Positions 32,260-53,142 of a DNA stretch of 64,000 bases are shown here, piece after piece. The notes beneath the pieces are model-generated. The model saw only the letters and a program-made list of their open reading frames with translations, searched no databases and was not told the origin of the DNA. The stretch covers positions 1 to 64,000 of the forward strand of contig CACOJM010000002.1 of assembly GCA_902627565.1 (NCBI GenBank), given 5' to 3'. Positions within the stretch are counted from its first letter, which is position 1, and every line of letters starts with the position of its first letter. This stretch comes from an uncultured Pelagibacteraceae bacterium (GTDB lineage: Bacteria > Pseudomonadota > Alphaproteobacteria > Pelagibacterales > Pelagibacteraceae). The translations under genes and the position numbers were made by a program.

Positions 32260-33282
32260 ATGTACAGTCAGAATATTTATTTAAATAATCAACTAAAAAT
32301 TTGGATGATTTCATTATTATCATTAATTTCTTTGATTATATTAGTTGGTGGCCTTACTAGATTAACGGACTCGGGGTTATCAATTACTTCTTGGGAATTA
32401 TTTGTGGGTTTACTCCCTCCATTATCCAATGAAAAATGGATTGATTATTTTGATTTATATAAATCAATACCAGAATTTAAGGAACAAAATTTCAACATGA
32501 CACTTGAAGAATTTAAGATTATTTTTTGGTGGGAATGGGGTCATCGTCAATTAGGTAGATTAATTGGAATTGTTATTTTTTTTCCTATGATTTATTTCAC
32601 TATTAAAAATGGATCATGGATAATCAAAAAATATGGAATAATTTTTTTACTAGTATGTTTTCAGGGGTTTATTGGATGGTATATGGTATCAAGCGGTTTG
32701 ATTGATAGAGTAGATGTTAGTCATTACAGATTATCCTTACATCTTGTAATGGCATTCATAATATTATCAATTGTTTTTTGGAAATTTCTAGAATTAACAG
32801 ATTTAAAAATTATACAGGTTTCATCAAAACTATTTTCAATTAAACTATTTCTTGTCTTAATATTTTTACAATTAATAATAGGTGCCTTTGTTTCGGGGCT
32901 GGACGCTGGTAAAATTTACAATACATGGCCTTTAATGGGGTCATCTTATTTTCCTGACGATAGTAAGATTATTGAATTTTTGAACATTAATATATTTGAT
33001 AATCCTTCCGTAGTTCAGTTTATTCATAGAAATTTAGCTTACCTAATTTTAATTGTTTATTTACATGTGTTTTATATCACTTATATGCTTAAAAATAAAA
33101 AATTATTAAAGCCAATAATCTTAATAGGGCTTGTTTTGTTATTGCAGATTATTTTAGGCGTTTTGACAATTTTATCTGGAGTAAAAATAATTTACGCATC
33201 ATTACACCAGATAAATTCAATTTTGATAATTCTTTCAACATTATATTTTCTTTACATTTCGCAATATAAAAAAATTAACTGA
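32260..33282 (+). CDS. ctaA: Heme A synthase (CtaA/COX15)
   Basis: A 340-residue, eight-helix membrane enzyme hydroxylating heme O to heme A for cytochrome c oxidase. Motifs: VGGLTRLTDSGLSITSW, WWEWGHRQLGRLIG, HYRLSLHLVMAF, QFIHRNLAYL and SLHQINS, with the four heme-ligand histidines. The type is that of alphaproteobacteria and mitochondria. The 3' end overlaps the convergent metY gene by eight bases. Confidence 0.95.
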   Translation: MYSQNIYLNNQLKIWMISLLSLISLIILVGGLTRLTDSGLSITSWELFVGLLPPLSNEKWIDYFDLYKSIPEFKEQNFNMTLEEFKIIFWWEWGHRQLGRLIGIVIFFPMIYFTIKNGSWIIKKYGIIFLLVCFQGFIGWYMVSSGLIDRVDVSHYRLSLHLVMAFIILSIVFWKFLELTDLKIIQVSSKLFSIKLFLVLIFLQLIIGAFVSGLDAGKIYNTWPLMGSSYFPDDSKIIEFLNINIFDNPSVVQFIHRNLAYLILIVYLHVFYITYMLKNKKLLKPIILIGLVLLLQIILGVLTILSGVKIIYASLHQINSILIILSTLYFLYISQYKKIN

Positions 33283-34603
33283 CAGCTTTTAAATTGCCTT
33301 TAGATGATTTATTTAAAGCTTGATTCAGGTCTTCAATAATATCATCAATGTGTTCAATTCCAATACAAAGTCTAACATAGCTTTGGGTAACACCTGCAGC
33401 AGCAAGTTCCTTTTCATTTAATTGACTGTGTGTTGTGCTGGCTGGATGAATAGCCAAACTTCTTGCATCACCAATATTTGCTACATGATAAAACATTTTT
33501 AAAGACTCTATAAATTTTTTACCTGCTTCAATGCCGCCTTTTAACTCAATACCTACCATTGGTCCATTACCACCATTAAGATATTGTTTAGCTCTTTTTG
33601 ATATACGTTCTTCGTGTTCTGTTGAGTAAATTACTTTAATAACCTCTTTATGTTTTTTGAGGAATTGAACAACTTTTTCAGCATTTTCACAATGTCGTTT
33701 CATTCTTAAAGCTACAGTTTCTAAACCTTGTATAATAGCAAAGGCATTATCAGGGGCTAACGCAGATCCAAGATCTCTTAACAAACAAACTCTAGCTCTA
33801 ACAGCGAATGGAACATTGGCTCCCGTAAGTTCTGGTACTACTTTACCCCATATAACTCCTCCGTAACTTGCGTCAGGCTCATTAAATAAAGGTTGTCTTT
33901 TTGTATCGGCAGTCCAATCAAAATTACCACTATCAACAATACTTCCAGCGATTGCTGTACCATGTCCACCTATATATTTTGTTAATGAATGAATTACTAC
34001 CGCCGCCCCATGTTCAATAGGCTTACAAATAACAGGCGAAGCGGTATTATCCACGATTAAAGGTATATTATATTTTCTACCGATATCAGAAACTTCTTTA
34101 ATTGGAAAAACTCTCAAATATGGATTTGGTAAAGTTTCTCCGTAAAAAGCTCTAGTCTTATCATCAATTAATTTTTTAAAATTATTTGGATCTGAGGGAT
34201 CAGCGTATCTTATTTCTATACCCAACTTACTTAATGTGTGTGTAAATAAAGATACAGTACCTCCATATAAATCTGTAGAACTTACAATATTATCACCAGC
34301 TTGAGCTACATTTAAGATTGCAAAAGTCGAAGCTGTTTGACCTGATGAAACTGTTAAACAAGCTAGACCTCCCTCTAGTGCAGCTATTCTTTTCTCAAGG
34401 ACGTCATTCGTTGGATTCATTATTCTTGTATAAATATTTCCAAACTCTTTTAATGAAAACAAATTTGCAGCATGATCTGTACTTTTAAATTGATAAGAAG
34501 TTGTTCTATATATTGGTACAGCAACAGCATTTGTTGTTGGATCACTTCTATAATCACCACCGTGAATGGCAATAGTTTCTGGATTATTTCTTTTTTTTGT
34601 CAT
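33275..34603 (-). CDS. metY: O-acetylhomoserine aminocarboxypropyltransferase (sulfhydrylase)
   Basis: A 442-residue PLP enzyme of the Cys/Met metabolism family making homocysteine from O-acetylhomoserine and sulfide. The N-terminal ETIAIHGGDYRSDPTTNAVA, the YTRIMNPTND segment and the PLP lysine in VIHSLTKYIGGHGTAIAG are diagnostic. The SD AAGGAG lies six bases before the ATG. The 140-base leader carries SAM-II-like and SAM-V-like aptamers in tandem, so expression should fall when S-adenosylmethionine is plentiful. Confidence 0.96.
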   Translation of the reverse strand: MTKKRNNPETIAIHGGDYRSDPTTNAVAVPIYRTTSYQFKSTDHAANLFSLKEFGNIYTRIMNPTNDVLEKRIAALEGGLACLTVSSGQTASTFAILNVAQAGDNIVSSTDLYGGTVSLFTHTLSKLGIEIRYADPSDPNNFKKLIDDKTRAFYGETLPNPYLRVFPIKEVSDIGRKYNIPLIVDNTASPVICKPIEHGAAVVIHSLTKYIGGHGTAIAGSIVDSGNFDWTADTKRQPLFNEPDASYGGVIWGKVVPELTGANVPFAVRARVCLLRDLGSALAPDNAFAIIQGLETVALRMKRHCENAEKVVQFLKKHKEVIKVIYSTEHEERISKRAKQYLNGGNGPMVGIELKGGIEAGKKFIESLKMFYHVANIGDARSLAIHPASTTHSQLNEKELAAAGVTQSYVRLCIGIEHIDDIIEDLNQALNKSSKGNLKAVS

Positions 34604-34618
34604 TTTACTCCTTTTTTA

Positions 34619-34667
34619 GTACTTTAGCTTTATGCCAGGCGTACAATATAGTTCAAATGCCTACCGA
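34619..34667 (-). promoter_or_regulatory. SAM-V-like riboswitch (second aptamer of the metY leader)
   Basis: Read on the minus strand, a short stem TAGGC/GCCTG encloses the conserved GCATTTGAACT...ATATTG core, followed by AAAGCTAAAGT. The ACT of the loop can pair with the AGT after GCTAAA to close an H-type pseudoknot. Core bases match the SAM-II/SAM-V superfamily. The aptamer's 3' strand ends about seven bases before the metY SD (AAGGAG), which fits control of translation initiation. The class assignment is from memory of the consensus. Confidence 0.75.
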
Positions 34668-34683
34668 TTTTTATTGGGAATAT

Positions 34684-34732
34684 TCCATTTTAGCAGTTAA
34701 AGCCCGCAATAGGTTCAAATCGGCTAACTCTT
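34684..34732 (-). promoter_or_regulatory. SAM-II-like riboswitch (first aptamer of the metY leader)
   Basis: On the minus strand, AGTTAGCC pairs with GGCTTTAACT (one bulge) around the conserved GATTTGAACC...TATTGC core, followed by GCTAAAATGG. The CC of the loop can pair with the terminal GG to make the pseudoknot. The GATTTG...TTGC...GCTAAA order is the SAM-II hallmark. It lies 5' of the SAM-V-like element, giving a tandem arrangement known from Pelagibacter. Confidence 0.78.
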
Positions 34733-34772
34733 TTATAACAAAATAATCATATAAAACAACAAAAATATCGAT

Positions 34773-51620: not shown

Positions 51621-53142
51621 TTTTTTTAAATAGAATATCTATTGGATTAATATCGCTATCAAGTTTCAAAAAATCATGTTTTGAAATTGAGGAAAACACA
51701 ATATCTTTATCTTTTAAGTCGAAAATCTTAAGTACTTTTAATGACGTGTCAGGAATTATTGGATATAGCATAAATGTTATTTTTCTAATCATTTCTAGTG
51801 TTGTGTAGACAATTGTATTTAATCTTATTTCATCATCTTTTTTTTTCCAAGGTTCTTGATCATTGAAATATTTATTAGTAGCAAATAATGCATTTATGAT
51901 AAATTCAATATAAAAATTTATATTCTGTTTATCAATTTCAGCTCGTATCTTATCAATATTTGAAGTAAAACTGTCTAAAATTTTTAAGTCCTCATTATTA
52001 AAATTTATTTTTTTTGGAATTTTTTGACTACAATTTTTAACAGCAAATGAAATTGTTCTTTGACAAAGATTTCCATAATTGTTTGCTAAATCACTATTGA
52101 TACAATCCTCTAATTTTTCCTGGGAAATATTACCGTCATTGCCAAAAGAAACTTCTTTAACTAAGTAATATCTTAGTGGATCTAGACCATATTTATTTAT
52201 GATTTCAATTGGATCGAGAATGTTGCCTTTTGATTTTGACATTTTTTCATCACCAGATAAAATCCAACCGTGTCCATATACTCTTTTTGGTAATTCTATC
52301 TTTGCAGCCATTAAAAAAGCGGGCCAATAAATTGCGTGAAATCTTAAAATATCTTTACCAATTAAATGGATAGACGCAGGCCAAAATTTTTTAAACAAAT
52401 CATTATTAGTATTGGGATAATTCAAAGCACTAATATAATTTGTTAAAGCGTCTAACCACACATATATAACATGTTTATCATTATTTGGGACTTTAATACC
52501 CCATGAAAAACTTTTTCTACTTACAGACAAATCCTTTAAACCACTTTTTACAAAACTTATAACTTCATTTTTTCTAGACTCAGGTTGAATAAAATTTGGA
52601 TTTTCATTATAAAATTTTAATAATGGTTCTTGCCACTTGGATAATCTAAAAAAAAAAGATTCTTCATCCATCCATTCAACTGGAGATTTTGAAATTTTAG
52701 CAATTTTAACTCCATTTTCCTCAAATATTTCATCTTCATTATAAAAGGCTTCATCTGAAACAGAATACCATCCTGAATATTTTGATAAATAAATATCCTC
52801 GTTTTTAACCAACTCTTTCCATAGGTGCTGAACTGAATCTTTATGTCTTTTTTCAGTTGTTCTAATAAAATCTGTGTTTGTTAAATTTAGAGTTTTTGAT
52901 AAATCTTTAAATGTTTGACTTATTTTGTCACAAAATTTAAGTGTATCAACATTATCATTTTCTGCAGCTCGCTGAATTTTTAATCCATGTTCATCAGTGC
53001 CAGTCAAAAAATATACGTTAAAACCGTCTATTCTTTTGAATCTAGCTAGGAAATCAGCAATAATACTTGAATAAGCGTGTCCCATATGCGGTTTTGCTGA
53101 TGGATAATAAATTGGTGTTGTTATGTAATAATTTTTATTCAT
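51601..53142 (-). CDS. metG: Methionyl-tRNA synthetase
   Basis: A 513-residue class I synthetase. HIGH-type motif HMGHAYSS, KMSKS in DEKMSKSKGNIL, and the anticodon-binding helical domain (about 385-510). The C-terminal tRNA-binding/dimer domain of enterobacterial MetRS is absent and the connective-peptide knuckle has no zinc cysteines (GWYSVSDEAFYNEDE), as in the cysteine-free class. It overlaps holB by eight bases. Confidence 0.96.
   Translation of the reverse strand: MNKNYYITTPIYYPSAKPHMGHAYSSIIADFLARFKRIDGFNVYFLTGTDEHGLKIQRAAENDNVDTLKFCDKISQTFKDLSKTLNLTNTDFIRTTEKRHKDSVQHLWKELVKNEDIYLSKYSGWYSVSDEAFYNEDEIFEENGVKIAKISKSPVEWMDEESFFFRLSKWQEPLLKFYNENPNFIQPESRKNEVISFVKSGLKDLSVSRKSFSWGIKVPNNDKHVIYVWLDALTNYISALNYPNTNNDLFKKFWPASIHLIGKDILRFHAIYWPAFLMAAKIELPKRVYGHGWILSGDEKMSKSKGNILDPIEIINKYGLDPLRYYLVKEVSFGNDGNISQEKLEDCINSDLANNYGNLCQRTISFAVKNCSQKIPKKINFNNEDLKILDSFTSNIDKIRAEIDKQNINFYIEFIINALFATNKYFNDQEPWKKKDDEIRLNTIVYTTLEMIRKITFMLYPIIPDTSLKVLKIFDLKDKDIVFSSISKHDFLKLDSDINPIDILFKKIEKKDD

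Follow-up and report, generated by a model that had tools for sequence, protein, structure and literature searches.

The metY leader of an uncultured Pelagibacteraceae bacterium carries, ahead of an ordinary SAM-V riboswitch, a compact element that very probably folds as a SAM-II-type aptamer with a P1 of 3 to 4 bp, and the short linker between the two contains a strand complementary to this first aptamer. Aptamer and complement are both conserved in relatives, they occur together, and pairing of the complement and folding of the aptamer are mutually exclusive. SAM binding by the compact element, the direction of the switch, and its output are inferred. On balance, the linker probably supplies the expression platform of the SAM-II-like switch in the form of an anti-aptamer strand that competes with SAM binding.

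The window (the whole stretch of DNA analysed, 64,000 nt) contains on its minus strand an open reading frame (33275 to 34603) for a 442-amino-acid protein of the O-acetylhomoserine (thiol)-lyase type, designated metY on the basis of the protein sequence and the metY context in Meyer 2009. The SAM-V aptamer and its translational platform (34605 to 34671, minus strand) matched Rfam RF01826 at 82.3 bits against a cut-off of 41, with P1 formed by A34662-C34659 and G34640-U34637 and the Shine-Dalgarno sequence AAGGAG at 34613-34608. With a score over the cut-off, a pseudoknot reaching the Shine-Dalgarno sequence, and metY as the next gene, this half of the leader is a regular SAM-V riboswitch.

The compact element lies upstream on the same strand (34684 to 34725). 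The SAM_V model aligned it as 34734-34680 with 24.9 bits only (curated cut-off, 41), and hence it is not annotated by Rfam; the Rfam SAM_alpha model (RF00521) gave no match to it at E ≤ 10. By score, the element thus falls outside RF00521, but its anatomy is that of SAM-II. The SAM-II blocks GAUUUGAACC, UAUUGC, GCUAAA, and GGA follow one another in order, and the alignment and pair counts over 44 leaders revealed an H-type pseudoknot with P1, P2, and the conserved GAUUU, UUGC, and GCUAAA. P1 is formed by A34725-C34722 with G34704-U34701, the loop L1 reads GAUUUGAACCUAUUGC, and the pseudoknot joins C34713 and C34712 to G34685 and G34686 and UUGC (34709-34706) to GCUAA (34694-34690). A leader from another genus of the same family (L098) reached 22.2 bits with SAM_alpha over these blocks, against a curated cut-off of 36.

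Over a set of 44 divergent leaders, pairing reached 91 to 100% in P1 and in the pseudoknot helices of the element, and three of these pairs had changed on both sides; when the P1 of SAM-V was included, both-side changes were found in 5 of the 15 pairs counted, compared to 2.4 in shuffles. The ligand-loop and pseudoknot nucleotides GAUUUG, UAUUGC, and GCUAAA were invariant in the 44 representatives. The level of pairing and the five both-side pairs make it very probable that the element is a real SAM-II-type fold, and thereby a putative SAM sensor. A compensatory pseudoknot change suggested by eye in one leader (L015) was rejected, as the pair count gave a G-U pair and a mismatch. Likewise rejected was an upstream reading frame built on the GGA of the element, since the leaders read by eye offer no ATG at a suitable distance. 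Two metY leaders (L266 and L269) have the ligand-loop variant CCGATTTAATCC (G to A), with the linker motif UCGG still kept.

The pattern of the element matched 116 of 397 Pelagibacterales genomes, every one of them in the genus of the window, and a reversed control pattern matched none of the genomes listed. In a scan of GTDB contigs, which may miss records close to the window, all records among the matches listed were Pelagibacteraceae, Pelagibacterales, or Pelagibacter. The compact element is found ahead of metY or mmuM and is followed in most cases by SAM-V. Among the loci read, a conserved SAM-II-type aptamer followed by SAM-V preceded the methionine gene in 141 leaders (111 metY and 30 mmuM). 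A few mmuM leaders carry the element without SAM-V; these belong to at least three sequence types that have lost SAM-V and kept the element (L286, L288, L294, L220, L291, L293, and L186), and their start codon follows the complement after about 10 to 30 A/U-rich nucleotides, without a clear Shine-Dalgarno sequence. Conversely, nine metY leaders of the same genus (L100, L103, L108, L109, L259, L260, L262, L263, and L264) have SAM-V, no element, and no UCGG. In L098 (genus g9; minus strand, about 1576-1690), the compact element is followed by a strong intrinsic terminator, then SAM-V, then metY, with no significant linker complement (P = 0.21); this arrangement is likely an intermediate form.

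For strain HTCC1062, the literature places SAM-V before bhmT, metY, and mmuM but reports SAM-II for no genes other than bhmT and metX (PMC5069961, PMC2704228). In a genome consistent with HTCC1062 (G011), the compact element was found before both metY (1005765-1005800) and mmuM (732867-732902), and the SAM-V coordinates fell inside intergenic regions listed for that strain. A fourth SAM-V match in this genome (contig 1, 1126163-1126227, minus strand; 57.6 bits) lies near the bhmT region and is possibly the riboswitch reported before osmC. The genome of the window itself (G000, contig 1) has a subthreshold SAM_alpha match at 51786-51860 on the minus strand (L002; 26.1 bits; E = 3.5e-4) that could be a SAM-II of the metX type. 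Known tandem leaders also scored under the SAM_alpha cut-off where scanned (20.4 bits for the g5 metY leader L040, no match listed for the bhmT leader L058), so surveys based on Rfam probably undercount SAM-II in SAR11.

The preliminary description of this leader had pointed to a perfect complement of 7 nt between CCGATTT (34723-34717, minus strand) and AAATCGG (34670-34664, minus strand), and both the pairing and the coordinates are exact. The target, CCGAUUU in the message, comprises the 5′ strand of P1 and the start of the ligand loop L1 and is invariant over the 44 representatives. The antisense strand spans 34663 to 34670, because U34663 adds an eighth pair, a wobble with G34724, to AAAUCGG; A34725 and A34662, beyond it, do not pair. 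It is supported by the conservation of UCGG or UUGG and by pairing in ViennaRNA. Such a complement is not unusual in a single leader. Perfect runs of at least 7 nt arose in 28% of dinucleotide shuffles of both halves of the window leader and in 24% of those in which only the downstream part was shuffled, and a claim of significance from this leader by itself was dropped (P about 0.24 to 0.28). The complement of the window leader is within chance by itself; across relatives, it is beyond chance.

In the 111 metY leaders, the duplex between the P1/L1 strand of the element and the linker had a mean energy of about -10.1 to -10.35 kcal/mol, compared to -3.5 kcal/mol for mononucleotide-shuffled linkers, and the real linker fell below P = 0.05 in every one. 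All leaders compared here, those of mmuM included, are related to one another, so that their numbers do not stand for independent events. Little or no excess was seen for three control targets (the SAM-V 5′ strand and other strands of the element) within the metY and mmuM leaders. At least 7 of 9 pairs formed in a single register in 86 of the 111 leaders, with any other register occurring in at most 5. Directly before SAM-V, the motif was UCGG in 107 leaders and UUGG in 3 (110 of 111 together). A natural control came from 61 SAM-V leaders that lack the compact element (those of g5, g6, and further genera, bhmT leaders, and element-less metY leaders); the same 22 nt averaged -3.43 kcal/mol, and neither UCGG nor UUGG was present in any of them. 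When single 20-nt linkers were compared with their dinucleotide shuffles, no more than about a quarter of the linker clusters stood out; this test has little power, since a linker contains UC, CG, and GG about once each and shuffling nearly rebuilds UCGG. In nested folding with ViennaRNA, in which pseudoknot energies are not represented, the antisense helix had a probability above 0.5 in 101 of the 111 metY leaders and in 10 of 111 with shuffled linkers.

Leaders of mmuM keep the complement as well, directed at the same target strand with letters other than those of metY. Examples are AUCAAAUAAGCAA against UUGCCGAUUUGAU (11 of 13 pairs), AUUGGUAAA against UUUACCGAU, and AAAUCGGUU against AGCCGAUUU. 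In the 30 mmuM leaders, the mean duplex was -8.05 kcal/mol, versus -3.17 kcal/mol when shuffled, and 21 were below P = 0.05; two neighbouring registers accounted for 14 and 7 leaders. The case is weaker here than in metY, as nested folding placed the antisense helix above a probability of 0.5 in 5 of 30. When linkers were swapped among targets differing in the variable L1 letters, a weak test, the duplex of the mmuM linkers was stronger with the AU type to which they belong (-8.05 versus -6.15), metY linkers of the UU type preferred UU or UA over AU, and metY linkers of the AU type were indifferent. Two mmuM leaders, L128 and L060 (the latter consistent with HTCC1062), carry ACC/GGU in place of GCC/GGC in P1 together with UUGGU in the antisense strand, and all pairs are kept. 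This one informative exception to the lack of variation in the target is a P1 change accommodated by the antisense strand.

Some mmuM leaders retain the complement although SAM-V is gone. It was found as GAUCAAAU against AUUUGAUC in L286, L288, and L294 (P = 0.002 to 0.018) and as UUCAAUUCGG in L293 (P = 0.005), was doubtful in L291 (P = 0.19), and was undetectable in L178, where SAM-V looks like a remnant (P = 0.48). In sum, it was significant in two of the three mmuM lineages without SAM-V. These results bear on the possibility that the complement is fortuitous and that UCGG is conserved for another reason, such as an extended contact with SAM-V or a protein site. The chance level of the 7-nt match in the window leader is consistent with such an explanation, and since metY leaders vary hardly at all in either the target or UCGG, pairing as such is unproven there. 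However, UCGG is absent from all of the SAM-V leaders that lack the element, and the complement persists in different letters in mmuM and in some leaders devoid of SAM-V. Thus, a coincidental complement seems very unlikely.

Conservation of the complement among relatives, which the preliminary description had left to alignment, extends across the genus in both metY and mmuM leaders. Covariation of the 7 nt, which was to be sought in the same alignment, did not emerge: none of the nine pairs of the antisense helix had changed on both sides. In five of them the variation is one-sided, and in the other four the sole departures are unpaired cells; the element side is invariant and drift is confined to the linker. 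The near absence of two-sided covariation is explained by the nature of the target, which is an invariant ligand-binding strand. The suggestion that pairing would break the first aptamer is borne out, because the antisense helix takes up one strand of P1, the 5′ strand, and, within L1, the conserved GAUUU.

The preliminary description had further proposed that the helix couples the two aptamers, so that ligand binding to one decides the folding of the other. In its most developed form, this proposal places the antisense helix in end-to-end stacking on the P1 of SAM-V, so that SAM occupancy of the first aptamer sets, through a continuous helix, how easily or at what threshold SAM-V folds. The leader would then be a terminator-free coupled switch, working by strand exchange between two structurally related aptamers and giving a cooperative or hand-over response. 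The position of the antisense strand just before SAM-V was as described: it runs without a gap into P1, and UYGG is separated from the GG of P1 by 2 nt in 107 of the 111 metY leaders and by 3 nt in 3, even though the whole linker varies from 18 to 28 nt. This fixed spacing is compatible with end-to-end stacking, and in the bhmT tandem the linker and SAM-V sequences do affect the SAM-II domain (PMC11508383). However, two of the three mmuM lineages devoid of SAM-V still have the complement, which speaks against coupling as its purpose. Nor did the folding models reveal control over SAM-V: blocking the target moved the probability of the SAM-V P1 from 0.025 to 0.060 and the exposure of the Shine-Dalgarno sequence from 0.60 to 0.635, in a nested model that can represent neither pseudoknot, and coupling by way of the nested fold of SAM-V was rejected as having no effect. 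The SAM-V of the bhmT tandem also behaves alike with or without the linker (PMC11508383). Because the complement remains in some leaders that have lost SAM-V and UCGG is missing where SAM-V occurs without the element, the antisense strand goes with the first aptamer; it is probably the off-state partner of the first sensor rather than a control link to the second. A coupled switch is less likely than the anti-aptamer reading, and we regard it as improbable.

If the linker is an anti-aptamer strand, the metY leader would consist of a compact SAM-II-like aptamer with a P1 of 3 to 4 bp, a short linker with its own anti-aptamer strand, and SAM-V. At low SAM, the linker strand would pair first with the unpaired GAUUU of L1, which would serve as a toehold, and would then displace the GGC partner of P1 to yield a helix of 8 to 11 bp near the 5′ end of the mRNA that closes the SAM-II-like site. 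With SAM bound, L1 would lie within the pseudoknot triplex, the toehold would be hidden, and the antisense strand would be left free. SAM-V would fold and mask the Shine-Dalgarno sequence independently.

It could also be that the first aptamer is a relic that the linker keeps permanently closed, so that the pairing contributes only to leader folding or protection of the 5′ end and SAM-dependent switching does not occur. Nested folding is in line with such masking, as the antisense helix is favoured over P1 in metY leaders (mean probability, 0.886 versus 0.022). However, GAUUUG, UAUUGC, and GCUAAA have remained invariant though the antisense strand covers only their first part, and the P1 and pseudoknot pairs covary, in contrast to the drift expected of a relic. 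A permanently masked aptamer is therefore an unlikely explanation.

No hairpin followed by a U run was found in the linkers of about 20 nt in metY and mmuM, nor is the antisense helix followed by such a run, and a terminator in the linker was rejected. Under sulfur limitation in HTCC1062, metY mRNA rises 7.1-fold and mmuM mRNA 6.1-fold (PMC5069961). The lack of a terminator and these mRNA changes favour an output at the mRNA level, through the structure or lifetime of the 5′ end or through premature termination, in addition to the translational SAM-V switch. We put this forward only tentatively, and the mRNA changes could equally be explained by decay after translation is blocked by SAM-V.

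A putative promoter on the minus strand (34732 to 34759), identified by a consensus scan, consists of TTGTTT (34759-34754) and TATAAA (34737-34732) separated by 16 nt. The end of a -10-like hexamer lies 7 nt ahead of the CC in 77 of 143 leaders, and transcription may accordingly begin at P1 or immediately upstream of it; the antisense helix would then be a 5′-terminal stem. Promoter scores barely exceeded those of shuffled sequence (11.3 versus 10.5), and the start site is for this reason a prediction.

The tandem leader of bhmT in "Candidatus Pelagibacter ubique", in the order SAM-II, terminator, SAM-V, reportedly goes back to Poiata et al. 2009. Like that tandem, the leaders studied here have a SAM-II-type aptamer before SAM-V at SAR11 methionine genes. 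The terminator of the bhmT tandem follows SAM-II (PMC9481103), and its linker blocks the response of SAM-II to SAM in vitro (PMC11508383), so that the SAM-II domain is silenced by a linker there too. In contrast to the metY and mmuM linkers, with their approximately 20 nt and no terminator, the bhmT linker contains an intrinsic terminator in front of a U tract. Among the leaders read, those of g5, bhmT, and g9 have a terminator between the aptamers. The complement of the bhmT type (GCUAAAGCG/CGCUUUAGC; L040 and L058) is directed at the 3′ strand of the aptamer, whereas that of metY is directed at the 5′ strand of P1 and L1.

The compact element shares with SAM-II (RF00521) the order and sequence of the blocks GAUUUGA, UUGC, and GCUAAA and the H-type pseudoknot. 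It differs in its P1 of 3 to 4 bp, its shorter loops, and a score under the Rfam cut-off, and it would use an antisense strand in place of a terminator or an anti-Shine-Dalgarno sequence. The downstream half is an ordinary SAM-V, like that of the metY crystal structure (RF01826; PMC6061858), of which the upstream element is a structural cousin; the published work on metY concerned 53 to 55 nt of SAM-V only and left the upstream element out (PMC6061858). The metA leader of Sinorhizobium meliloti is also a SAM-II switch acting on RNA stability and on translation at a distance, but has the Shine-Dalgarno sequence inside the aptamer and a terminator, with neither SAM-V nor such an antisense strand mentioned in the abstract (PMC9373788). 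No description of a compact, terminator-free form with an antisense strand to P1 and L1 was found in the open-access literature searched, a scope that leaves the primary SAM-V paper (Poiata 2009) outside. What is known, then, is the tandem of SAM-II, terminator, and SAM-V; what appears to be new is the compact SAM-II-like aptamer with a probable anti-aptamer linker ahead of SAM-V.

If the anti-aptamer reading is correct, dose-response measurements of SAR11 methionine synthesis have so far covered half of the switch. The masking by the linker in the bhmT tandem, which is unexplained, would gain a concrete setting. The metY and mmuM leaders, with and without SAM-V and with and without a terminator, form a natural series for the evolution of expression platforms. 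Were the two aptamers coupled after all, the switch would operate in a bacterial group that is among the most abundant in the ocean.
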